Assembly (NCBI GenBank): GCA_002354735.1
Contig: DEMD01000006.1
Location: 34,840 to 98,839 of the forward strand
Source of the DNA: Gammaproteobacteria bacterium UBA2679
GTDB taxonomy: Bacteria; Pseudomonadota; Gammaproteobacteria; Pseudomonadales; Oleiphilaceae
Length of the DNA stretch: 64,000 nt
Reading direction: 5' to 3'
Both the position numbers and the translations under genes were made by a program. The notes under the pieces are model-generated. The model had not been told where the DNA came from. It was given only the letters and a program-made list of their open reading frames with translations, and did no database searches. Shown piece by piece: positions 50,756 to 64,000 of this stretch; the first letter of the stretch is position 1; every line of letters starts with the position of its first letter.

Positions 50756-53700
50756 TCATTCCATTGCAGGTTCGACCAATTCCGGAACCTCGTCCAGGTA
50801 CATCTCCTCGTCCCAGATTTCAACGGGGAAGGCAGCTTCTGGAATTGGAACCTCGATCGCCGCTGCGCGTTGGATATACGGCTCTATGATCGGCGCCATA
50901 CCTTTCAGCACTTGTGCAGGCAGCGCTGAAGTGAATCGGAATTGCCCAGCCTCATCACCGACAACGAACGCAGTCAGCGTGCCGAAATGATTGTCTCCGA
51001 GATAGAACACCAGCGTAGCGGTGCGGCTCAGTGCGCGACCGGTGACGCGCTGGCCGCCTGCGGTTGAGACCAGGCGGTTATCGCCCGTCCCTGTTTTTCC
51101 GCCCATGTTCAGGTCGCTACCATCCGTTCGCTTGAAGGCTCCCAGCAGGCGACGGCCCGTGCCTTTGTTGACCACATCGGCGAGGGCGATTTTCATGGCG
51201 CGAGCCACCTCTACATGCATCACCTGATCCGCCATTGCCAGCGGTTGGCTCAAGTGGGTTTCATAGGGAGTATCGGCCGCAAACACTAGCCGATTGATAC
51301 GACGGGGCGAGATACGCGCGCCTTCGTTCATCGTGATGCCCATAAACTCCGCCAAGGCTGCGGGTCGATCCCCGGAACTGCCCAGTGCCGTGGCGAGGGA
51401 CGGTACCAAATGGTCGAAGGGAAAGCCCATGCGGCGCCAGCGCCGGTGCAGTTCGGCAAAGGCTTCGACTTCCAGCATCGTGCGTACGCGGCTATCGCGT
51501 GCGCTGCTGGCGCGGGTACGGCTGAGCCAGCGGTAGACCTCTTGCCGCTGATTGGTGCTGGCCGTCAATACCTCAGAAAAGGTGGACTTGTCGTTTTGCA
51601 GCAGATAACCCACCAACCATAATTCCAGCGGATGCACCTTGGCGAGGTAACCCAGATCTTGCAAATTAAAGAGCTTGGGATCGTAGCGCTCATACAAACG
51701 CGCCAAGGTAGCGGCATCTGGTGCCCGAACCAACTGCTCCGTTACAAACTGGCTGAAACTGTCCAGATCCGCCGACGGATACAGGTATCGGTAAATTACC
51801 GCGGCCCGCACCGGCGTTAGCTGCAGCCCGGAGAGTAAAGCACTTACGCGCTCGTCGGGGCCTTTGTTGAGGTACTTGCCCCAGAAGCGGGACAGGAACT
51901 GGGTCCCTTCCCGATCCGCAAAGCGCGCCAATACCGTGGGACGACGGGGGTCATCATCATTCTTCATCACTGCGCGCAGGTCTTGCCACTGCTGCTCAGT
52001 GAGATAGCTGATCACATCCCGCAACATCCGCACGAAGGGCAAGTTGATGGATTCATTGAGTGCTTCGCGTACGGTCGGATTGCGACCGTTGTCCTCGCGC
52101 CGGAAGTTGCTGAAGGTATGTTTGCCACCGCCAGTGAAAAACGACTCAGCCGGGCTGGCGGAATAGCGCCGATCCATGGCCGCGGCCAGCATCTGCTCCA
52201 GGGTGATCTCGGGTTGAGCAAGAAATTGCCCCAATACCCAGCGGGTTAGCGAGTCGGTATCGTCCGGCTGCGCTGCGCGTGGCAGCGGGGCATAGCGCTC
52301 GTAAAGCTCGGCAATGATCTCCAGATAGGAGGCCAGCACTCGCAGTTTGGCCGTAGAGCCCAACTCCAGCTTACTGCCTTCATTGATGTCGAAGGGAATG
52401 TCGGTGTTGTCTGTTTGCACCCGTACCTGATTACCCAGATCGCTACGTTCGAACAGTGTGAAACTGTAACGCAGGCTTGCCGCCTGACCGGGACGAAGCA
52501 GATATTCACCAACCAGACCGTTGGATTCAGCCACAGCGGGATCACGCAAACTGCGCAGATGTGCGGTGACCTGCTCTTGCAAGCTCCGATCCAGCGTGGT
52601 GGTGACCATCAGGTCCATTCGGTCGAGCTGATACAGAGAGACATCAAGCAGGTTGCTCAAGCGGTTGCGCACCATATTGACGCCTTTGTTAGTTTCCCCC
52701 TGTATCACCGCTGGCTGCTCACGGAAGTTACGAAATACAAGTTCCTGCTCGAGTCCGGCCTTGGCGAGCGCCGGACTGATCCGGCCACCGGCACGTAGCA
52801 GACGCAGATGAGCGTCCGCCAACTCTCCGAGCTCGGTTCTATTCTGCAATAAATAATACGATGGCCGCCGGTGGGCAATCATCAGCGCCAGCACCTGGCG
52901 CAACGCAAAGCCTTGCAGTCTTAAGTCATCTTCCTCAGGATTTTTGAGTGCGAGCAAGCGATTCACCTCCGCGGGGTCCGCCGCGAACCAGACGCGAAGC
53001 CCGTCACCAATGCCATTGACCTCTCCATAGCCCGGTGCCGCCGCAAGGGGTACTGTGTTCAGGTAATCCAGAACCAGTTGCCGACGCGCTGGCATGGTGT
53101 CGTCTCCATGCTGGTAAACCCGCACACTGGCCGACACCATCTGCCTCAGCTTCTCCATGATCGAACCAGTCACGCCATCATCTGAATGGCGAAACTTTTC
53201 GATCTGCGTAGCTAGCGTGCTTCCGCCCATCGACGGCGTATTCAGATTCATAGCCTCGCCAGCTTTGAATATAGCGGCCTTGAGGAACCGACCCCAGTTC
53301 ACCGTCGGGTTCATGTGCTGGCGATTGCCGGAAAGCAGGCGGCGATCCTCAATAAACAGGAGCGAGTCGATCATCAAGGGTGGAATGTCTTCGAAGCGCT
53401 CGAAGATACGACGGGGATAGCCAAACTCGAACATAAGCTGTTGATCCACATCGTGCACCGACAACCCCGCTTGATTTTTTTCACGATACGGCGGGTAAAA
53501 GCCGGCTTCTACGAAGGTAAGCAGTGGCGGCGAGAAACGTACTTGACGATCGATGTAGTAGCCATTGGCTTGCAACTGGTCGAGCATCGCAGGCAAGTGT
53601 GCATAACCCAAACGCTGGTCAAAGGGACCCTGCACCGGAAAGCGGATGCTCTGGCTCGGCCCCTCCTCAAGGTCATACGACAGCGAACGAGCGTAGTCCG

Positions 53701-53914
53701 GAAGCAACCGCGCTTGCAGCCAGGAGGTGCGCGCCTCAAACCATGCGAGCCCGGCAATCGCCACGAACAGCAGCGCAGCGGACAGCAACAACCAGCGCCA
53801 ATACCTTCGCTTGGCTGGCTTTGGTTGAGGCTGCGTCGCCAGAACCGAATCATTTTCAGTAAGGGACGCATCAGTCATCGGTTGCACGTGAGAATCTTGC
53901 GGAGAACGTCGCAT
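50756..53914 (-). CDS. Bifunctional penicillin-binding protein (GT51 + transpeptidase)
   Basis: 1052 residues with a membrane anchor (about 40-60). The GT51 glycosyltransferase region carries SLLFIEDRRLL and GGSTLATQIEKFRH. The transpeptidase has SxxK in ELGSTAKL and the KTG box in GGKTGTGDN. It is longer than PBP1a/1b (about 800-850) with an insert between the domains. Peptidoglycan synthesis in the periplasm is expected. It is divergent from pbpG. A later start (ATG at 53878) is possible. Confidence 0.9.
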   Translation of the reverse strand: MRRSPQDSHVQPMTDASLTENDSVLATQPQPKPAKRRYWRWLLLSAALLFVAIAGLAWFEARTSWLQARLLPDYARSLSYDLEEGPSQSIRFPVQGPFDQRLGYAHLPAMLDQLQANGYYIDRQVRFSPPLLTFVEAGFYPPYREKNQAGLSVHDVDQQLMFEFGYPRRIFERFEDIPPLMIDSLLFIEDRRLLSGNRQHMNPTVNWGRFLKAAIFKAGEAMNLNTPSMGGSTLATQIEKFRHSDDGVTGSIMEKLRQMVSASVRVYQHGDDTMPARRQLVLDYLNTVPLAAAPGYGEVNGIGDGLRVWFAADPAEVNRLLALKNPEEDDLRLQGFALRQVLALMIAHRRPSYYLLQNRTELGELADAHLRLLRAGGRISPALAKAGLEQELVFRNFREQPAVIQGETNKGVNMVRNRLSNLLDVSLYQLDRMDLMVTTTLDRSLQEQVTAHLRSLRDPAVAESNGLVGEYLLRPGQAASLRYSFTLFERSDLGNQVRVQTDNTDIPFDINEGSKLELGSTAKLRVLASYLEIIAELYERYAPLPRAAQPDDTDSLTRWVLGQFLAQPEITLEQMLAAAMDRRYSASPAESFFTGGGKHTFSNFRREDNGRNPTVREALNESINLPFVRMLRDVISYLTEQQWQDLRAVMKNDDDPRRPTVLARFADREGTQFLSRFWGKYLNKGPDERVSALLSGLQLTPVRAAVIYRYLYPSADLDSFSQFVTEQLVRAPDAATLARLYERYDPKLFNLQDLGYLAKVHPLELWLVGYLLQNDKSTFSEVLTASTNQRQEVYRWLSRTRASSARDSRVRTMLEVEAFAELHRRWRRMGFPFDHLVPSLATALGSSGDRPAALAEFMGITMNEGARISPRRINRLVFAADTPYETHLSQPLAMADQVMHVEVARAMKIALADVVNKGTGRRLLGAFKRTDGSDLNMGGKTGTGDNRLVSTAGGQRVTGRALSRTATLVFYLGDNHFGTLTAFVVGDEAGQFRFTSALPAQVLKGMAPIIEPYIQRAAAIEVPIPEAAFPVEIWDEEMYLDEVPELVEPAME

Positions 53915-56979: not shown

Positions 56980-57149
56980 CGTTAACGGTGTAGCTCGTAC
57001 CTCGGCAACGATTTGCCCGTAATGAATGTATTTAGTTGCAGTTGTACTGTTTATTTCAGTCTCCTCAGGACAATCACCGCAATGCCTGTGTGCTTGACGC
57101 ACGTCTCAGCGCGCAACGTATATAGCGGCACTGCAGGCGCTGGTTATGC
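56980..57149 (-). other. attC-like site, end of the cassette array (left limit uncertain)
   Basis: The right core GTTATGC (57143-57149) overlaps the TAA stop of the next gene (57144-57146), as in the other cassettes. A left core CGTTAAC at 56980-56986 is proposed, but the two arms are poorly complementary, so the left limit is uncertain. It would be the distal end of the array. Confidence 0.45.
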
Positions 57150-57476
57150 GAGTACTGCAATAATGATTCCTCCTCCCACGAAAAAGATCCAAGGGAGTAA
57201 CAGGATTGCAAATTGACGTATAGGGATGATTAGGTAAAGCAACGCGCCCAACATACCAGCAGCAGCTCCAGCGAAAGTGTTGAAATCCGCCGCTGCGTCG
57301 GCTTGGTAGAACAGCAAGTCAGCGTACCATTGCCGAAATTCATTGTGGTGAGCCAGAACAAGCTGAAATACTACCGTTATCAAGCAGACATAGAAAAAGG
57401 TCCCGCAAAGGGCCCGTAAGACGTTCGCAAGCAGGTATCCGCCGACCTCATCGAGCCGTTTGAAGAGTCTAGGCAT
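57144..57476 (-). CDS. Cassette: small membrane protein
   Basis: 110 residues with three predicted helices (LANVLRALCGTFFYVCLITVVF, a middle FAGAAAGMLGALLYLIIP and a last ILLLPWIFFVGGGIIIAVLA). No family was recognised. Its stop is in a core site, and it is the last small gene before the ordinary chromosome. Typical anonymous cassette ORF. Confidence 0.65.
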   Translation of the reverse strand: MPRLFKRLDEVGGYLLANVLRALCGTFFYVCLITVVFQLVLAHHNEFRQWYADLLFYQADAAADFNTFAGAAAGMLGALLYLIIPIRQFAILLLPWIFFVGGGIIIAVLA

Positions 57477-57485
57477 GATCTAACC

Positions 57486-57736
57486 GCATAACGTTTCGCT
57501 AAACAGGAGACAGGCGCAGCTTCGACTGTCTGGTGGAGGACCAAAGGGCCGGAAAGCATTCAAGCGACTTGATACGTGCTGCGCCTCACTAAAGCCGAAT
57601 GTGCTTCGACACCCGAATCTCTAATAGCCGCACAAGCTCCGGATCCATGCATTCATAGTTGTCGGGAAGATGCCCAGGCCTTGCGGCGCACCGGAGCGCT
57701 AGCGTAGTTGCGTCCGACAACAGCCGCTTGTTACGT
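57486..57736 (-). other. attC-like site, unusually long
   Basis: A left core GCATAAC (57486-57492) and a right core GTTACGT (57730-57736) enclose 251 bases. The arms near the cores are roughly complementary, with CGCT and AGCG elements. It is about twice as long as the longest nearby attC sites. It may be a very long site, or a site plus a gene-less mini-cassette. The right core overlaps the VOC gene stop (57731-57733). Confidence 0.55.
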
Positions 57737-58099
57737 ATCATAATTACTGGAAACTAGGTGAATAATGTTCGATGGGCTAGAAATCCAGAATGCCTTAAGC
57801 CCATCTGGAAGCGGCTCAATCTCATCCCGACGATGACAGCCTTGCTCTTTAAGGTATTCAGCAGCCTTGCCGATATCACTAGCGACGACTTCTAACCATA
57901 TTTCAGACTGACTCAAGCTCGACACACGATCTAGCCAAAGCACTTTATCGCCAAACTCAAATTTCGAGGTGTCGTGCGCGCCACTTCCAGCAATTTCTTT
58001 AAACCGCAAAACTTCTCGGTAGAAACGTACGGTATCTTCGTACTCGTGCGCAGGGATTTTCATTGCAATGTTCTGGCCTGGCTCAAATTCCAAATCCAT
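57731..58099 (-). CDS. Cassette: VOC/glyoxalase-like protein
   Basis: 122 residues from ATG at 58099, with GAGGAT before it. The VOC pattern is AMKIPAHEYEDTVRFYREVLRF with later EIWLEVVASDIGKAAEYLKEQGC. The first metal His is replaced by IPAHE, so metal binding is uncertain. An in-frame ATG at 58141 lies inside the neighbouring attC-like site and is not used. The stop overlaps the right core of 57486-57736. Confidence 0.85.
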   Translation of the reverse strand: MDLEFEPGQNIAMKIPAHEYEDTVRFYREVLRFKEIAGSGAHDTSKFEFGDKVLWLDRVSSLSQSEIWLEVVASDIGKAAEYLKEQGCHRRDEIEPLPDGLKAFWISSPSNIIHLVSSNYDT

Positions 58100-58123
58100 G
58101 GTCAGATCCTCGCCTAGGTGAAT

Positions 58124-58204
58124 ACTTAACGCCGCGAACATGCGCAGCTTGTAGTGAAGGCGCAGCCAAAACGAAAGGCTGTCGCTTGCTTCGCCTTGTC
58201 AGGG
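58124..58204 (-). other. attC-like site
   Basis: Left core ACTTAAC (58124-58130) and right core GTCAGGG (58198-58204), 81 bases. Internal sequence (GCGCAGCTTGTAGTG, GGCTGTCGCT) closely matches the site at 62640-62723. The right core overlaps the stop of the lipoprotein gene (58199-58201). Confidence 0.75.
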
Positions 58205-58525
58205 CTGAACCTTCTCGCGCTTCTGTAAACCATGATCATGAAGACATCTATAGAACTCCAGAATGATTTCGCCCGCAGCCATATTGAAAGCTTTCGATTG
58301 AGTCTTAACATATTTGGACTCCGATGGGGCTACAGACAAAGCTTTACTATAGTAATTGTCTGCTTCTCTCATCTTGGCATCATACTGACACTCAGCCTTT
58401 GCTTCAGTAACCTCACTGCTACTAGCAAGCGTGCCATCGTGGAAGACATATTCGTACTCGATTCTCGGCCTCGGTGCGCATGCACAAAGCACGAGCAGAA
58501 CGCTATAAATAGTGGGAATCTTCAC
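58199..58525 (-). CDS. Cassette: small lipoprotein
   Basis: 108 residues from a GTG at 58525 with GGAGA just upstream. The first residues carry a lipoprotein signal with a Cys at VLCACAP. The mature part is mixed helix with no recognised family. The frame opens to 58573 inside the next attC-like site, so the GTG start is preferred. Confidence 0.6.
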   Translation of the reverse strand: MKIPTIYSVLLVLCACAPRPRIEYEYVFHDGTLASSSEVTEAKAECQYDAKMREADNYYSKALSVAPSESKYVKTQSKAFNMAAGEIILEFYRCLHDHGLQKREKVQP

Positions 58526-58557
58526 CCAATCTCCTACAGTAGCTGGACGTTCCTCCG

Positions 58558-58605
58558 CCCTAACGCCCGCCATCAGGCCTTTGTCCTTGGAGGCGCTTGT
58601 TAGGG
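58558..58605 (-). other. attC-like site (short)
   Basis: CCCTAAC (58558-58564) and GTTAGGG (58599-58605) are perfect complements separated by 34 bases, total 48. The right core overlaps the stop codon of the membrane-protein gene (58600-58602). It is the shortest clear site in the array. Confidence 0.75.
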
Positions 58606-59079
58606 CCGCCTGTCCCCGGCTTTGCTAATTAGCAGCGTAACACTGGCTACAAAAACTACTGCTGGTGCCGAAAGCCAGAAAAAATAGCCCCTTTGCACTT
58701 GAACGGCCTCCTCGGCCAAGCCTCCCCCTACCCTCTCGGTTGGGAAAGCTGAAGGTTCTATCGCATAGAAAAGCATGCAAACAGCAGCCAAAAAGGAAAA
58801 AACCGTTGCCCTCCTGTCCAGCCCGCGCATGAAGTGAACTGTAGCGACAACAAATAGCAGGTTACCGAACCATGGCAGGCAGCGCCAGATTGCCCCAAAA
58901 TCCAAAGTGACGATGCCCATTATTGACAGCAAGAGCCCTTGCACGAACAAATCCCAGCCCGGCAAAAAAACCTTGAAACTCTGCTGGTACTGATGGGAGT
59001 AGCTTACAGCCGGTGATACAAGGCTTGTAAGAAAGAATACCCCTGCGATCGAAGTGAGCACTTTCCTATGCAAAGTCAT
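58600..59079 (-). CDS. Cassette: hypothetical membrane protein
   Basis: 159 residues with four predicted helices (signal-like start LTSIAGVFFLTSLVSP, then LFVQGLLLSIMGIVTLDF, FGNLLFVVATVHFMRG, LSAPAVVFVASVTLLI). No family recognised. The stop is inside the attC-like site to its left. Confidence 0.7.
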   Translation of the reverse strand: MTLHRKVLTSIAGVFFLTSLVSPAVSYSHQYQQSFKVFLPGWDLFVQGLLLSIMGIVTLDFGAIWRCLPWFGNLLFVVATVHFMRGLDRRATVFSFLAAVCMLFYAIEPSAFPTERVGGGLAEEAVQVQRGYFFWLSAPAVVFVASVTLLISKAGDRRP

Positions 59080-59081
59080 AG

Positions 59082-59142
59082 CCCTAACGCTTGTCTCAAG
59101 AGCGGCCGCGAAGCGGCTGTCTCGCGAAGAAACTTGCTAGCC
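59082..59142 (-). other. attC-like site
   Basis: CCCTAAC (59082-59088) is paired with a degenerate right core GCTAGCC (59136-59142), 61 bases. An internal GGCCGCGAAGCGGC forms the top of the hairpin. The stop of the antitoxin gene (59137-59139) lies in the right core. Confidence 0.6.
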
Positions 59143-59442
59143 CCTAAGTCCGAGGTCTTCTCGGATAACCTCGGGATGGCGGAAAGCAATCTCGATAAGT
59201 GCTTGGGCTGGCCCCGATGGTTTGCGACGACCCTGCTCCCATTCTTGCAATGTGCGTGGAGAAATATGAAGCACCTCAGCAAATTGAAGCTGTGTCAGAC
59301 CAGTCTTACTACGAGCCTCTGCCACTTCATTCGGCTCTACAAGACTAACTCGTGCAGACTTACCAGCTTTCATCTCTTTGACTGATTGGAGCAACTTGTT
59401 GCCAAGCTCCTCGGCAGTCATGGCGTCATTACTCATTTTCAA
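59137..59442 (-). CDS. Cassette: XRE antitoxin (NadS/HigA-like)
   Basis: 101 residues with a DNA-binding region EARSKTGLTQLQFAEVLHISPRTLQEWEQGRR, an XRE helix-turn-helix. This form is annotated as NadS-family. It follows a RelE/HigB-type toxin gene, overlapping by 14 bases, and its stop lies in the attC-like site. Role: neutralise the toxin and repress the operon. Confidence 0.88.
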   Translation of the reverse strand: MKMSNDAMTAEELGNKLLQSVKEMKAGKSARVSLVEPNEVAEARSKTGLTQLQFAEVLHISPRTLQEWEQGRRKPSGPAQALIEIAFRHPEVIREDLGLRG

Positions 59443-59752
59443 GCACCTCTCGAATCGACTTCAGGATATGTGCGGGTATGTTTTCCTTAACAGCTTTCTT
59501 GTAGATGACGAGCAGCCAAATTTTACCACTAGCTAACTTAGTGAAATAGATAACTCGAGCCCCACCACGTTTCCCAGAACCCGCAACTGACCACCGAACT
59601 TTTCTGCACCCGCCGCTACCAGGAATCGGATCGCCAACCTCTGGATTAGCTGCAAGCCAAGAAAAGAAGCTATTGCGCTCATCCTCCGACCAGATTTTGT
59701 CGACATCTGCTTTGAATGTAGGTGTTTCGATGATCGTATACATAAGCGCCAT
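59429..59752 (-). CDS. Cassette: RelE/HigB-like toxin
   Basis: 107 residues. Motifs typical of RelE-type nucleases are VRWSVAGSGKRGGARVIYF and WLLVIYKKAVKENIP. These toxins cleave mRNA on the ribosome. A second ATG three codons on (59743) is as good a start. It shares one cassette with the antitoxin gene that overlaps its 3' end, the toxin-first order seen in HigBA-type systems. Confidence 0.88.
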   Translation of the reverse strand: MALMYTIIETPTFKADVDKIWSEDERNSFFSWLAANPEVGDPIPGSGGCRKVRWSVAGSGKRGGARVIYFTKLASGKIWLLVIYKKAVKENIPAHILKSIREVLENE

Positions 59753-59793
59753 AATACGTCATTGACGTACCTATGTGCAAAGATTTTCCAAAG

Positions 59794-59910
59794 GGTTAAC
59801 GCCTTGCTCAGCCGCATGCGCGCTGGTGCGGATCTTGCGCGACAATGGCGCGAAGCGACATGCGCAAAACTCGTGGAAGCGCGTATGTCGGTTGCAGTAA
59901 CTGATTAGTG
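59794..59910 (-). other. attC-like site
   Basis: GGTTAAC (59794-59800) on the left; a right end GATTAGT around 59903-59909 corresponds to GTTATGT of the sister site at 60450-60566, to which it is very similar (GCCTTGCTCAGCCGCAT shared). Length 117. The core G is mutated to A, so recombination may be weak. The brnA stop overlaps it. Confidence 0.75.
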
Positions 59911-60129
59911 CTTCTGAGCCCAGGAAATGTCGATCTTTCGCTGCTGGGCGACGCAGTCACGCAAGTACAGATTGATGAGGCTTTGATAAGGCACGCCTGA
60001 TTCCTCGGACATACCCTTGAAGTACTCTATGACTTCCTCGCTCAGCCGCATTGTCACTGGCTTCTTTAGACGAGCAGCGTATGGGTTTGGGCGGGACTTC
60101 ATCTTCGAAAAATCGTAGCTATCTTTCAT
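59905..60129 (-). CDS. brnA: Cassette: BrnA antitoxin
   Basis: 74 residues with the ribbon-helix-helix segment KKPVTMRLSEEVIEYFKGMSEESG, fitting the BrnA/CopG-type antitoxin. Its ATG overlaps the original brnT stop (ATGA at 60126-60129), as in intact brnTA operons. Stop lies in the attC-like site. Confidence 0.88.
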   Translation of the reverse strand: MKDSYDFSKMKSRPNPYAARLKKPVTMRLSEEVIEYFKGMSEESGVPYQSLINLYLRDCVAQQRKIDISWAQKH

Positions 60130-60413
60130 TTCTTCGACCCTCGGTAGAATTTGCTCTCAGATCCGGTTGCCTTCCTGGCCGATATGATTCAAACCGTGTG
60201 ACCGGAGTTTCTTTCGCAATGACAAACAACGAGAATCCTCGACTCAAGGCTCATGCCCAAGAGAATGAACCTGTCCTCAGTATCCGAATGCTCCTCATCG
60301 AAGAATTGAGTAGCCATTTCATCGAAAAACACGGATTTAGCCTCGCCAAAGGATACTCCATGCTTCTTCAAATTCGCCTTGGCCTTAGCCTGGTCCCACT
60401 CGAAATCTATCAT
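60126..60413 (-). pseudogene. brnT: Cassette: brnT toxin gene with in-frame premature stop
   Basis: BrnT-family RNase toxin. Residues 1-74 (start 60413) match the family: IDFEWDQAKAKANLKKHGVSF and RILVVCHCER. A TGA at 60189-60191 replaces the Arg codon of the conserved RIISAR. Reading on gives IISARKATGSESKFYRG to a TGA at 60126-60128 that overlaps brnA as ATGA. A single C-to-T change in CGA would explain it. The active-site Arg and the C-terminal part are lost, so the toxin is probably dead unless TGA is read through. Confidence 0.85.
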
Positions 60414-60449
60414 ATGTACATTGTATGTACAAAACGTCCGGTGTCAGTG

Positions 60450-60566
60450 CACTAACGCCTTGCTCAGCCGCATACGCGGTGGAGCGGAATTTGCGCAACG
60501 ATGGCGCAAAGCGACATGCACAAAGTCCGTGGAAGCGCGTACGTCGGTTGCAGCAACTGGTTATGT
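60450..60566 (-). other. attC-like site
   Basis: CACTAAC (60450-60456) and GTTATGT (60560-60566), 117 bases, near-identical in build to 59794-59910. Internal GCGCAACGATGGCGCAAAGCG forms the hairpin top. It is the attC of the HigBA cassette. Confidence 0.85.
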
Positions 60567-60573
60567 GATGCGA

Positions 60574-60861
60574 CTACGCTGCTACCAGCCTCTTCACAGA
60601 CAACTCGTGCCGATGCTGCTCGGCGTGCCACAACTCATACTGTGTTTGCTGGTTTAACCAAGTCTCAGCAGATGTGCCAAATGCAATGGAAAGCCGCACC
60701 GCCATCTCCGGCCTGATACCAGCTTTACCGTTAAGCAAAGCACTGAGGGTTTTCCTGCTAACGCCAAGCGCCTCTGCTGCTGCTGTGACAGATAGCTCAA
60801 GAGGCTCTAAGCAGAGCTCTCGAATAATTTCACCTGGATGGGGAGGGTTATGCATCATCAT
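60574..60861 (-). CDS. higA: Cassette: HigA-like XRE antitoxin
   Basis: 95 residues, [29 protein letters not shown] at the start and [28 protein letters not shown] next, the typical HigA helix-turn-helix protein. It follows higB by nine bases, the usual toxin-first order. It is intact, unlike its toxin. Confidence 0.92.
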
Positions 60862-60870
60862 AGGTAGGCC

Positions 60871-61134
60871 TCAATGGTAGTCCTCGTAATTCACGATTTC
60901 AGCATCGCCGTCTTCGAACCGAAAGGTAACCCGCCAGTTACCGCTTACAGTGACAGACCAGACGCCTGATCGATTGCCCACGAGCTGATGAAGACGGAGC
61001 CCCGGCAAATCCATGTCCTTAACAGCACTGCATGCATGGCTCCTCTCTCGAGAGACCGGTAACAAGTGCGAGCGTTGCATGACTCTTAAAGCGATAACTC
61101 GAACAGTCATCGGGGCCTCGAGCCCGTATAGCAA
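60871..61134 (-). pseudogene. higB: Cassette: higB toxin gene with replaced 5' end
   Basis: The C-terminal part (from about residue 38: VKDMDLPGLRLHQL and SGNWRVTFRFEDGDA, ending VNYEDYH) is HigB/RelE-like. The first about 37 residues of this frame do not resemble HigB, and no other frame supplies the missing N-terminus. The neighbouring IS110-type element probably cut off the first 40 or so codons. Whether a truncated toxin is made is doubtful. If the frame starts at an internal Met, the toxin core is incomplete. Confidence 0.7.
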
Positions 61135-62133
61135 GGCAGAGTCAGCTTATTCTGAACACACCAGAAAACCAAATTGAACTCAACGTTGGCATTGATGTCG
61201 GAAAAGCCCAACTTGATATCGTGCTCCATCCTTTCAACGAATGCTATTCGATTGCCAACTCCGAAAAGGCTATCGTGGCATTCGTCAAGACACTCATGGG
61301 CCAACCAGTTGCCCGCATCGTTGTTGAAGCCACTGGTCGCTACGAAAGCGCCCTGGTCGCTGCCTGTCACAAGGCACAACTCCCCATCATTGTCGTCAAC
61401 CCAATCAGTGTCAGACGCTTTGCTCAGGTCATTGGTGTACTAGCCAAAACCGACAAGCTCGATGCCGGGGTAATCGCTAGATACGCAGCAACAATTAAAC
61501 CGGAGTTCAAGCCCGCAGCAGACCAAAACTCTCAACTCATCAAGGACCTACTCGTCAGACGCAGTCAACTTCTGGAAATGGCAACGATGGAAAAGAATCG
61601 GCTACAGATCCTGCCGAAATCACTGCACCGCTCTATCAATACCCTTCTAAAATCACTTGAGACCCAGATCAAAACAATTACTCAGCAGCTTGATCAGGAA
61701 GTCGCAAAAGTTGAGCAGTGGCGAAGCAAAACCGAACTCCTCACCAGCGTACCTGGGGTGGGCAAAGTCCTCGCCTACACGAATACTCAGTGACCTCCCA
61801 GAGCTCGGCTCACTCAACCGGAAAGAGATCGCAGCCCTGGTCGGTGTGGCGCCAATAAACAAAGATAGTGGGACGTTCAGTGGCAAGCGCAGAACCAGAG
61901 GCGGACGGCCGAAAATCCGAACGGTCATGTTCATGGCCATGCTCTCCTCCATCCAATGCAATCCTGTGTTCAAACGCTTTTACGAGCATCTGAAAGCCCA
62001 GGGCAAGCTACCGAAAGTTGCTGTGGTTGCCTGCATGCGTAAGCTCATCGTGGTGCTGAATACGATGGTGAAAAACGGTGAGCCATGGCGTGCTGTGGCT
62101 GCTTAATATTAAGATTTGACACCACAGTCACTT
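61025..62133 (+). mobile_element. IS110-family element (approximate limits)
   Basis: Left limit is estimated where higB homology stops (about 61025), the right where the attC core begins (62134). IS110 elements have no long inverted repeats, so ends are not defined by sequence here. The roughly 125-base non-coding stretch before the transposase could hold the guide (bridge) RNA described in the IS110 family; not proven. Confidence 0.55.
61149..62106 (+). pseudogene. IS110-family transposase, frameshifted
   Basis: Two frames together give one IS110 transposase. The first runs from about 61149 (no ATG before the GIDVGKAQLDIV motif; ATT at 61149 or CTG at 61152 are the only near starts) to a stop at 61791, and the second continues to 62106. 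One extra base near 61780 shifts the frame. DEDD catalytic residues are seen in GIDVGK, VVEATG and KTDKLDAG; the C-terminal Ser region is ALVGVAPINKDSGTF. This places it in the IS110 family; inactive unless the frame is corrected. Confidence 0.9.
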
Positions 62134-62140
62134 GTTAGGC
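62134..62140 (-). other. Right core of an attC site cut by the IS element
   Basis: GTTAGGC matches the GTTRRRY consensus exactly and overlaps the TAA stop of the DUF4279 gene (62135-62137). The rest of the site, expected to its left, is missing: the transposase gene ends 28 bases away. It is probably a remnant left after IS insertion or deletion. Confidence 0.7.
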
Positions 62141-62614
62141 ATCGGGCTCATCCAAGGACAAGAATGGTTCGATCATCAGAGGGAGGCCACGGTTTGCAAG
62201 CTCTACAATCGCAGTTGGCGAAACCACGAAATCGGCATTCCATTGATCAGTGTAGCCAATGAGGCGAACCCGCACGGTGAACCTTTCTTGAATGATTGTC
62301 CAAGCCGCTTTTTCAACCGGGAGTGATTGGACCCATTTTTCGAACTCAGCCTCCCCAGTCCCACCATTCGACAGTAATACTTCGCCGGACTGCAAATCCC
62401 AGCCACCGGTTTTATAGTACTGGGACCCTCTTGGCCTCTCATCATCTTTTCGGTAACACAAGTCCGGGACCACACCCAAAATCTCGGTTATCTCATCTGG
62501 GTCTAGATCGTCACCAGATATATTCAGTTCGAAGAACAACCTGTTGAACGGCCCTCCCATACGGGCGAATAATCTCAGGTTATGATTCTTTCTAGCATGA
62601 TCCAAGGGAAGCAC
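62135..62614 (-). CDS. Cassette: DUF4279-family protein
   Basis: 159 residues starting from GTG at 62614 (an ATG at 62560 is an alternative). The pattern FELNISGDDLDPDEITEILG, GGWDLQSGEVLL and YTDQWNADFVVSP is the DUF4279 family, common among contact-dependent or immunity-like proteins of unknown role. The stop is in the core site at 62134-62140. Confidence 0.85.
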   Translation of the reverse strand: MLPLDHARKNHNLRLFARMGGPFNRLFFELNISGDDLDPDEITEILGVVPDLCYRKDDERPRGSQYYKTGGWDLQSGEVLLSNGGTGEAEFEKWVQSLPVEKAAWTIIQERFTVRVRLIGYTDQWNADFVVSPTAIVELANRGLPLMIEPFLSLDEPDA

Positions 62615-62639
62615 CGCTCCGAGTTGAACGTGATTCTTT

Positions 62640-62723
62640 GCCTAACGCCGCCAACACGCGCAGCTTTGTAGTGGAGGCGGAGCCGAAACGGAAAAGCTGT
62701 CGCTGTGCTTGGCCTGGTTAGGC
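62640..62723 (-). other. attC-like site
   Basis: GCCTAAC (62640-62646) and GTTAGGC (62717-62723) are perfect complements, 84 bases apart end to end. Internal GCGCAGCTTTGTAGTGGAG matches the site at 58124-58204. The right core overlaps the stop of the next gene (62718-62720). Confidence 0.9.
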
Positions 62724-63086
62724 ATTGTCGATATGCGGTGGTTCGCCATAACACTCCTCGTAGGTAAGCCAGCCTTCAGCTACCGACTTCCTCACCCATT
62801 TAGAAGCACAACATTGCGGGGGAGAAAAACTGTACCATGGCCAGCAAATCACGCCCTCTGGCTCCTTTACGTCATTAGTAGCCCCGAGCAATACCGCAGA
62901 GTGTGTAAACATCTCAACTTTCCTGCCTTCTTCGGTCCGTTTAGGCAGCCGGCTCAAAAGCGGGTCGGCTAAGTCGCTCGCTCTCTCTAGGCTACTCGCT
63001 CGAACTATCAGGTGAGTGTCATTGCTTGAGTCAGGGCCGTCATCTTCCTCTCCGTTACCCCACCTCGTTAGAAAATATATATTCAT
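62718..63086 (-). CDS. Cassette: hypothetical protein
   Basis: 122 residues, acidic N-terminus (GNGEEDDGPDSSND), three Cys (ICWPWY, QCCASKW) and WLTYEECYGEPPHI at the end. No family was recognised. It occupies one cassette with the attC-like site on its left. Confidence 0.7.
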   Translation of the reverse strand: MNIYFLTRWGNGEEDDGPDSSNDTHLIVRASSLERASDLADPLLSRLPKRTEEGRKVEMFTHSAVLLGATNDVKEPEGVICWPWYSFSPPQCCASKWVRKSVAEGWLTYEECYGEPPHIDNA

Positions 63087-63095
63087 CGCTTGTGT

Positions 63096-63209
63096 GCCTA
63101 ACGCCGCCCTTTGCGGCCGGAATGGAGTGAACAGCCTTGTGGTAAAGTGGCGAAGCCACTCACAAGGCTGTTCACGGAATGCAGGTCCGACAACAGGGCC
63201 TTGTTATAT
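63096..63209 (-). other. attC-like site
   Basis: GCCTAAC (63096-63102) and GTTATAT (63203-63209), 114 bases. It contains a long internal inverted repeat: GTGAACAGCCTTGTG pairs with CACAAGGCTGTTCAC across the centre (about 63127-63175), an unusually strong hairpin. Confidence 0.85.
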
Positions 63210-63225
63210 TCCCACACCGCGGCCC

Positions 63226-63837
63226 CTATTTGTTCGCGAAGTAGAGAGGTATATCAGCGTCCCTAGCAAGCTTCGTCACGTTGGGGACTTTCTCTTCAGC
63301 AACTAGTATTAGTGCATAAGCATCAGAGTCTTCATTGATGGCCAACAGTTTATAGCCGATTCCACTTATACAGTCGAACAAGGAAGGGCCGTAGCCTGGG
63401 GCTTCGAGAAAGGCGCTGAGACCATATTCTGTTTCGGAATAATGCTTTTCCAGCTCTTTGTAGCATACGCTCTGCCCCAGGCTTCCTTCAGACAGTTCGT
63501 TCAGCCAGACCAAGGTGTCGGCAGGATCGGAGCTGTGATCTTGATACACCAGCATTTTAGTTCTCACTAAGGCGTCCACCAACGCTACTTCCGGGGAGAC
63601 CTCCTCTGAGCTTTCGATGCCTCTCTGATATAGCTCATCTTCAAAGCGGTTAAAATACTCCTGCCTATTAGACAGAAAGAGCTGTAGCTCTCCTAAGGCC
63701 TGCTCGCTACCACCTGACAACTCTTGAGTGAGCGTAAGCAGTGGCTGGCTTTCCTGATTGGTGTCTCGGTTATGCGCAGTACATGACAGAATCGCTAAGG
63801 CCAACACGGCAATTATGATGAGATAAATCATCTTCAA
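63226..63837 (-). CDS. Cassette: DUF6630-like lipoprotein
   Basis: 203 residues. The start has a lipoprotein signal (LALAILSCTA, Cys19). The C-terminal part (GIGYKLLAINEDSDAYALILVAEE and LARDADIPLYF) resembles the DUF6630 family. The role is unknown. It is the rightmost complete gene of the window and part of the cassette array. Confidence 0.75.
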   Translation of the reverse strand: MKMIYLIIIAVLALAILSCTAHNRDTNQESQPLLTLTQELSGGSEQALGELQLFLSNRQEYFNRFEDELYQRGIESSEEVSPEVALVDALVRTKMLVYQDHSSDPADTLVWLNELSEGSLGQSVCYKELEKHYSETEYGLSAFLEAPGYGPSLFDCISGIGYKLLAINEDSDAYALILVAEEKVPNVTKLARDADIPLYFANK

Positions 63838-63875
63838 TCTAGCTACCTCCCACCTGGTGATCGATTACTCTTTGA

Positions 63876-63990
63876 ATATAACGCTTTGCTCAGCTGCACA
63901 GCGGTTGTAGTGGATTTTTGTGCAACAATGAGCGAAGCGAATGCACAAAAAGGAGCGTAAACCGCTGTGTCAGTTGGAGCAACTTGATAC
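63876..63990 (-). other. attC-like site, degenerate, belonging to a cassette beyond the window
   Basis: ATATAAC (63876-63882) opens a stretch similar to 60450-60566 (GCTTTGCTCAGCTGCA, GAGCGAAGCGAATGC). The right core is unclear near 63984-63990 (GATACTG in place of GTTATGT). Its gene lies to the right, outside the window. Confidence 0.6.
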
Positions 63991-64000
63991 TGATTGAGCC

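Follow-up and report, generated by a model that had tools for sequence, protein, structure and literature searches.

What do the small, tightly spaced genes at one end of a 64,000-nucleotide stretch of contig DEMD01000006.1 (Gammaproteobacteria bacterium UBA2679; hereafter the window) represent, and how did the insertion sequence (IS) of the IS110 type that lies among them come to be there? The minus strand of 56980-64000 carries ten gene units in leftward succession, with toxin-antitoxin pairs and domains of unknown function (DUF) among the contents. The original prediction, made from the letters alone, had read this region as the distal end of a chromosomal integron cassette array with at least ten small minus-strand units. 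The ten gene units were recovered; one of the units proposed, however, turned out to be a plus-strand IS110-type element at approximately 61030-62135, which occupies the attC recombination site of a DUF4279 cassette, between that cassette and higA. With a probability of roughly 0.85, we interpret the locus as the distal end of a chromosomal integron array of an Allohahella-like gammaproteobacterium, one attC site of which was entered by an RNA-guided IS110-type element. The array is ordinary, and it is the clade of attC-residing IS110-type elements that looks new.

A covariance search for attC sites, which had been suggested together with the prediction, was performed with a model (R1) trained on 26 attC sites from other genomes (Vibrio, Marinobacter-family and related records), a training set that contains no letters of the window. 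Of five measures on which the 18 pairs of R1 were compared with 500 shuffles, three exceeded every shuffle and the other two were equalled by 60 and 142 of the 500. When both strands of the full 64 kb were searched at E≤10 (E-values being rough), four matches were obtained, all of which lie within 58.1-62.7 kb on the minus strand, with none outside the array. These were the 84 bp site at 62640-62723 (44.8 bits, E 9.6e-9), a short 48 bp site at 58558-58605 (31.1 bits, E 2.7e-5), the 81 bp site at 58124-58204 (23.2 bits, E 0.0026) and a 117 bp site at 60450-60566 (22.8 bits, E 0.0033). The best of them is raised by a training site of about 86% identity, located on the Marinobacter record NZ_CP092287.1 (86% mean, two pieces). 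A scan for the 18 pairs added the 114 bp site at 63096-63209, which R1 did not report and which forms 16 of the 18 pairs with a score of 19; nowhere outside the array does the score reach 18, and at the lowest score the scan gave 62 chance matches in the remainder of the window. A further 117 bp site at 59794-59910, without an R1 match, is 86% identical to 60450-60566 across 111 nt. Both of the predicted size families, 81/84 bp (58124-58204, 62640-62723) and 114/117 bp (63096-63209, 60450-60566, 59794-59910), are thus present. Weaker sites are spread over 57.0-64.0 kb, and for these a model search with filters off, which misses long-loop sites, was reserved. Loose pattern scans for the R'' and R' cores combined with folding were discarded for poor specificity, and an Rfam search over 50-64 kb returned a single sub-threshold microRNA match that was judged to be due to chance. 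The stop codon lies inside the R'' core at eight of the ten unit ends, so that what had been expected of nearly every unit does not extend to the genes at 63226 and 60574.

As a control, R1 was applied to seven stretches from four Marinobacter-family genomes and gave 61 matches at E≤0.1, including one that is duplicated because two stretches overlap. In the stretches examined, three genomes had 10, 27 and 22 distinct matches, each set confined to a single strand and extending away from an integrase gene encoded on the opposite one, and the fourth genome had a single match; the control is partly circular, as some of its sites (via L109, L176 and L185) belong to the training set. The polarity assumed in the prediction is that of these three integrons with an integrase gene. 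The external model, the cassette-type contents and the three integron genomes agree in identifying a cassette array.

That the array ends here was also borne out, since no attC match was found left of 57 kb and from 56.9 kb leftwards the genes are ordinary (ChrR cupin, metallo-hydrolase fold, MerR and D-Ala carboxypeptidase). The array is chromosomal, because the PBP-like protein encoded at 50756-53914 (P0001) is listed on a contig of 4,665,952 bases, and a plasmid origin was rejected on account of this 4.67-Mb contig. The best other match to the same protein, 89% identical, is from Allohahella marinimesophila, the nearest named relative. As predicted, no integrase gene was detected in the window, two IntI queries giving nothing better than E 0.78, compared with E 0.0 in a control stretch (L199). 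None was found on a contig of 4,665,952 bases among the best 120 of 7889 matches to an integrase query, a result that carries little weight, and a genome scan with the ChrR cupin gave no syntenic relative among the 80 loci retained.

The IS110-type element is a remnant with approximate ends. Its transposase pieces match PF01548 (DEDD, 8.8e-19) and PF02371 (Transposase_20, 2.3e-12), and they score 103.6 and 70.8 bits with NF033542, under the cut-off of 140; a complete relative (L136) scores 219.9. The transposase gene (61152-62106, plus strand) is decayed: compared with P0121, the closest protein, which is 90% identical to the first piece, residues 1-210 are read in a different frame from the later part (change at about 61756-61781), and the ATG of the relatives is CTG. 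The right end of the element adjoins GCCTAAC (62134-62140, minus strand), the R'' core that remains of the DUF4279 attC and marks the insertion point. The left end, roughly the first 80 bp, is absent where the truncated higB gene begins (60871-61029, minus strand; about the first 37 codons gone), and most of one attC is also missing there. The 3' part of the noncoding region upstream of the transposase gene remains at 61030-61151 (plus strand), as judged from an alignment with the regions of 25 relatives. Both guides are retained in it: TAACAAGTG, the putative right target guide with its extension (61060-61068), exactly complements 62129-62137 (right end plus R''), each occurring once on the plus strand of the window, and CAGTCA, the putative left donor guide (61104-61109), is identical to the right end at 62125-62130, an extra copy of CAGTCA lying at 61562 inside the transposase gene.

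Related elements were found in 61 of 196 Vibrio-genus genomes (DNA search, E≤1e-60) and in 23 of 163 Marinobacter-family genomes (DNA search, E≤1e-15), many matches being partial in both searches, and a class-wide protein search gave relatives in 10 of 369. By tblastn 52 full-length copies were collected, 50 of them with distinct flanks and 44 of these 50 with both ends testable. The usual junctions are ...TTGT/ATGGATAAT on the left and ...TTGT (or TGGT)/TARRY on the right. Insertion sites were restored by joining the two flanks of each copy and searched for an R' core, for which the sequence had to be GCGTTR, ACGTTA or TCGTTA, the distance to R'' 45-150 nt and the number of pairs joining the two arms one or more. 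Such a core was present at 34 of 44 restored sites, as against 214 of 3000 random flanks, and at least eight arm pairs were formed by 26 of 44 as against 107 of 3000. In a stricter, gap-free test, 23 of 44 sites formed at least 13 of the 18 attC pairs, compared with 3.65% of 4000. Among the class-wide relatives, L201-L205 show both junctions, with transposases 47-55% identical to P0128, and L208 shows the right junction only. The relatives make up a clade of IS110 elements that reside mostly in attC sites. The other four of the ten class-wide relatives, L206, L207, L209 and L210, have junctions of other kinds, and in a transposase tree of 60 rows (without L203 and L208) they split from all other rows at 100/100; the tree program warns of long branches at this split, and the tree contained no IS1111 sequence. 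These four carry more distant transposases, and their comparison with the other copies could show how the guide turned to attC. On a Vibrio alginolyticus plasmid (NZ_CP099958.1; L137, 1073-5825), an IS110 copy is flanked by two copies of one three-cassette block, with the same protein accessions on either side, which suggests that the duplication of the block is tied to the element.

The guides could be compared with the ends of the elements and with their flanks. A noncoding hexamer, [CT]A[GC]TCN, read as the donor guide in 47 of the 50 copies (three being unreadable), equals the right end in 46 of 47, in five variants; the exception, L150, combines the guides of one element type with the right end of a second and is possibly a recombinant of the two. 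In L140, L158, L172 and L173, TACTC replaces TAGTC both in the noncoding region and at the right end. With right-guide groups taken from printed tables, the three bases after TAAC were found to complement the right end beside the junction in 44 of 47 copies (AAG-CTT, AAA-TTT, CAG-CTG; exceptions L150, L157 and L174), and in 43 of 47 the match also spans GTTA of R'', where L179 fails. The variable left guide, which precedes GG[CT]TCC, resembles the attC sequence flanking the element to which it belongs: in 5000 shuffles the observed agreement was never reached, either for all 44 usable copies or for the 31 Vibrio-like copies among them.

A consensus fold of mixed Vibrio and Marinobacter rows was dropped, as its target-loop stem was one column off in the Marinobacter rows. 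Since the mixed fold misplaced this stem, pairs were counted on 38 Vibrio-like noncoding regions only, Marinobacter rows being excluded. The structure obtained has a long stem, within which both target guides lie, together with one hairpin and an additional inner hairpin. Of its cells, 98.8% are paired, and 13 pairs have changed on both sides; on each of five measures it was equalled by none of 500 shuffles, and when the partner was displaced by one to three columns, pairing fell to at most 44.2%. The inner hairpin is invariant and therefore uninformative on covariation. When three copies were folded individually, the z-scores were -3.4, -2.4 and -1.5. This pattern points to a bridge-RNA-like upstream region with target and donor guides.

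From these data the following course of events may be proposed. The noncoding region upstream of the transposase gene would produce a bridge RNA, as the covariation suggests. Its target loop would pair with both sides of the R'' junction, the variable left guide with the attC body and the TAAC right guide with the conserved GTTA of R'', and its donor loop would pair with the right end of the element. The transposase would then insert a circular copy at the shared GT, with its gene antiparallel to the cassettes. In the window, the element entered the attC of the DUF4279 cassette at the R'' core. In the simplest later history, a single deletion would have removed the left end of the element together with what remained of that attC and the first part of higB in the next cassette, while the transposase gene decayed. 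As insertion splits the attC, the neighbouring cassettes should freeze.

Several known systems resemble parts of this locus. Like the chromosomal (sedentary) integrons of Vibrio and Marinobacter, the array has same-strand cassettes, attC sites at their 3' side and toxin-antitoxin cassettes, and the attC model transfers between them; the window differs in host lineage, in that the integrase is unseen and in a degenerate distal end with an IS remnant. With IS621, an IS110 element with a bridge RNA, and with ISEc21 the clade shares an upstream noncoding RNA in which the target loop lies ahead of the donor loop. The available text on IS621 further describes left guides that read as the top strand and right guides that complement it (PMC11208160), as in the present copies, and the pairing of the extension with the partner DNA recalls the handshake guides in the accessible part of PMC11208158. 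In contrast to IS621 and ISEc21, the target of the clade is predicted to be the attC R'' core, the core dinucleotide is apparently GT rather than CT, and the extension seems to be about three bases long instead of two. The label ISCps7 is borne by a Marinobacter relative (P0221) with 70% identity to the first transposase piece of the window, so part of the clade is already catalogued; ISCps7 receives a brief mention in one paper, and no published target of it was found. In the available part of a Shewanella survey, IS110-family elements are placed within integron arrays and no IS interrupting an attC was detected (PMC9229058). No description of attC targeting by IS110-type elements was found in open-licence literature, the attC-targeting elements found there being of the IS1111 type.

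The latter group offers a different explanation of the element, namely that it belongs to the published attC-targeting IS1111 elements and not to a separate clade of the IS110 type. In the accessible portions of the literature, ISKpn4 and ISPst6 are attC-targeting IS1111 types (PMC11187229), and ISPa21, called IS110 in the abstract of PMC11616780 and assigned to the IS1111 group in its text, disrupts attC. Target and transposase superfamily (DEDD) are the same as in the present clade, and according to those portions ISKpn4 and ISPst6 are RNA-guided as well (PMC11187229, PMC11616780). IS1111 types, however, are described there as carrying their noncoding region downstream and as having long subterminal repeats (PMC11187229, PMC11208160), whereas in 44 of 44 measured copies of the clade the noncoding stretch spans 200-234 nt upstream of the transposase gene and about 26-32 nt downstream. 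The longest exact inverted repeat between the ends is 4-6 nt in 42 of 44 copies and 7 and 8 nt in the other two, near the shuffled means of 4.7-5.2. Because the upstream region is long, the downstream region short and the end repeats short, the present copies are of IS110 build, and membership of the IS1111 group, rejected on these 44 copies for lack of long subterminal repeats and of a downstream noncoding region, is very improbable. We consider an equally slim chance to be that the shared location in attC reflects vertical spread within arrays or carriage on cassettes instead of targeting. Members of a genus have arrays in common, and the shuffles leave kinship in; against this, the junction is identical to the nucleotide in attC sites of differing sequence and length, it recurs with the diverged transposases of L201-L205, and the guides co-vary with the ends of the elements. 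With respect to the array, a cluster of attC sites stranded in the chromosome without an integrase (CALIN) is unlikely, though more plausible than either explanation of the element just given. The window holds no integrase, several left-hand attC sites are degenerate, and the IS insertion and deletion show decay. The array nevertheless continues past the window edge, with its proximal side out of view, and the terminal cassettes of working chromosomal integrons are often degenerate too.

Some observations weigh against an integron end invaded by an attC-targeting, RNA-guided element. Integrase and attI are unseen, the proximal side of the array lying beyond the right edge of the window. The window copy lacks its left end, so its own left guide is not comparable with its flank, and in the 13 Marinobacter-family copies, the group nearest to it, the agreement of left guide and flank is not significant (p 0.20). 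Kinship among copies inflates the shuffle tests. At 10 of 44 restored sites no R' of the set form is present, 21 of 44 remain under 13 pairs, and L186 and L181 probably represent non-attC targets; the insertion-site test covered the orientation implied by R''. On balance, we regard it as probable, with less confidence than for the locus itself, that an IS110-type, bridge-RNA-guided clade, widespread in chromosomal integrons of marine Gammaproteobacteria, specialised on the attC R'' core separately from the attC-targeting IS1111 elements. Its variable left target guide would keep pace with the attC families of the host genomes, and integron cassettes would in this way be tracked, split and frozen by a parasite that is guided by RNA.

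The remaining parts of the array, all on the minus strand, are described from right to left. The attC of a cassette running past the window edge (63876-64000) gave no R1 match and was assigned by eye; it has R' GTTATAT and a degenerate R'' and, across 40 nt, is 75% identical to the 114-117 bp family. It is followed by the gene of a 203 aa DUF6630 protein (63226-63837; PF20335, E 4.8e-18), to which the 114 bp attC belongs, by a gene for 122 aa (62718-63086; unmatched in Pfam, NCBIfam and PADLOC under the thresholds applied), which precedes the 84 bp attC, and by the DUF4279 gene (62135-62614, 159 aa; PF14106, E 6.7e-10). Beyond the IS remnant and the higB fragment lie the antitoxin gene higA (60574-60861; TIGR02607, 108 bits, above the cut-off), the toxin gene brnT (60189-60413; PF04365, E 1.1e-21) and the antitoxin gene brnA (59905-60129; PF14384, E 1.6e-8). 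A RelE-like toxin gene (59429-59752; PF06296, under its cut-off) and a helix-turn-helix antitoxin gene (59137-59442; HTH_3) end in a short degenerate attC (59082-59142) that is weak (8.5 bits, E 1.9, in a 10-kb model search). Two genes without a family match come next, one for 159 aa (58600-59079; none found, PADLOC included) ahead of the 48 bp attC and one for 124 aa (58199-58573; no Pfam or PADLOC match) ahead of the 81 bp attC. The glyoxalase-like gene at 57731-58141 (PF00903, E 0.0064, under the cut-off) is followed by degenerate attC remains at 57486-57736 (R'' ACGTAAC at 57730-57736, R' GTTATGC at 57486-57492), assigned by eye and without an R1 match; about 250 bp without a clear gene separate the two core-like sequences, perhaps two decayed attC sites that have fused. 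The last cassette gene (57144-57476, 110 aa; no Pfam or PADLOC match) ends in a terminal degenerate attC (56980-57149, left limit by eye), of which 57092-57149 is again weak in the 10-kb search (9.1 bits, E 1.4).

The training record related to the 84 bp attC is itself unusual. NZ_CP092287.1 (L112, 1-1983) is a 1,983-bp circular Marinobacter 'plasmid' with four annotated genes, namely two antitoxins, a YoeB-like toxin and a cupin, and no replication gene is annotated in its possibly incomplete gene table. It has two attC model matches, one of which (1184-1267) is in the training set of the model. Sequencing seems to have captured here a circle of integron cassettes after its excision.

Taken together, the element points to widespread RNA-guided mobile elements for which the integron recombination site serves as a home, and it suggests that attC targeting by an RNA-guided transposase has arisen a second time. 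The relatives provide many natural guide-target pairs from which the targeting rules of IS110 elements may be derived at a site that is conserved yet variable, and the splitting of attC provides a testable explanation for the loss of mobility of some chromosomal cassettes.

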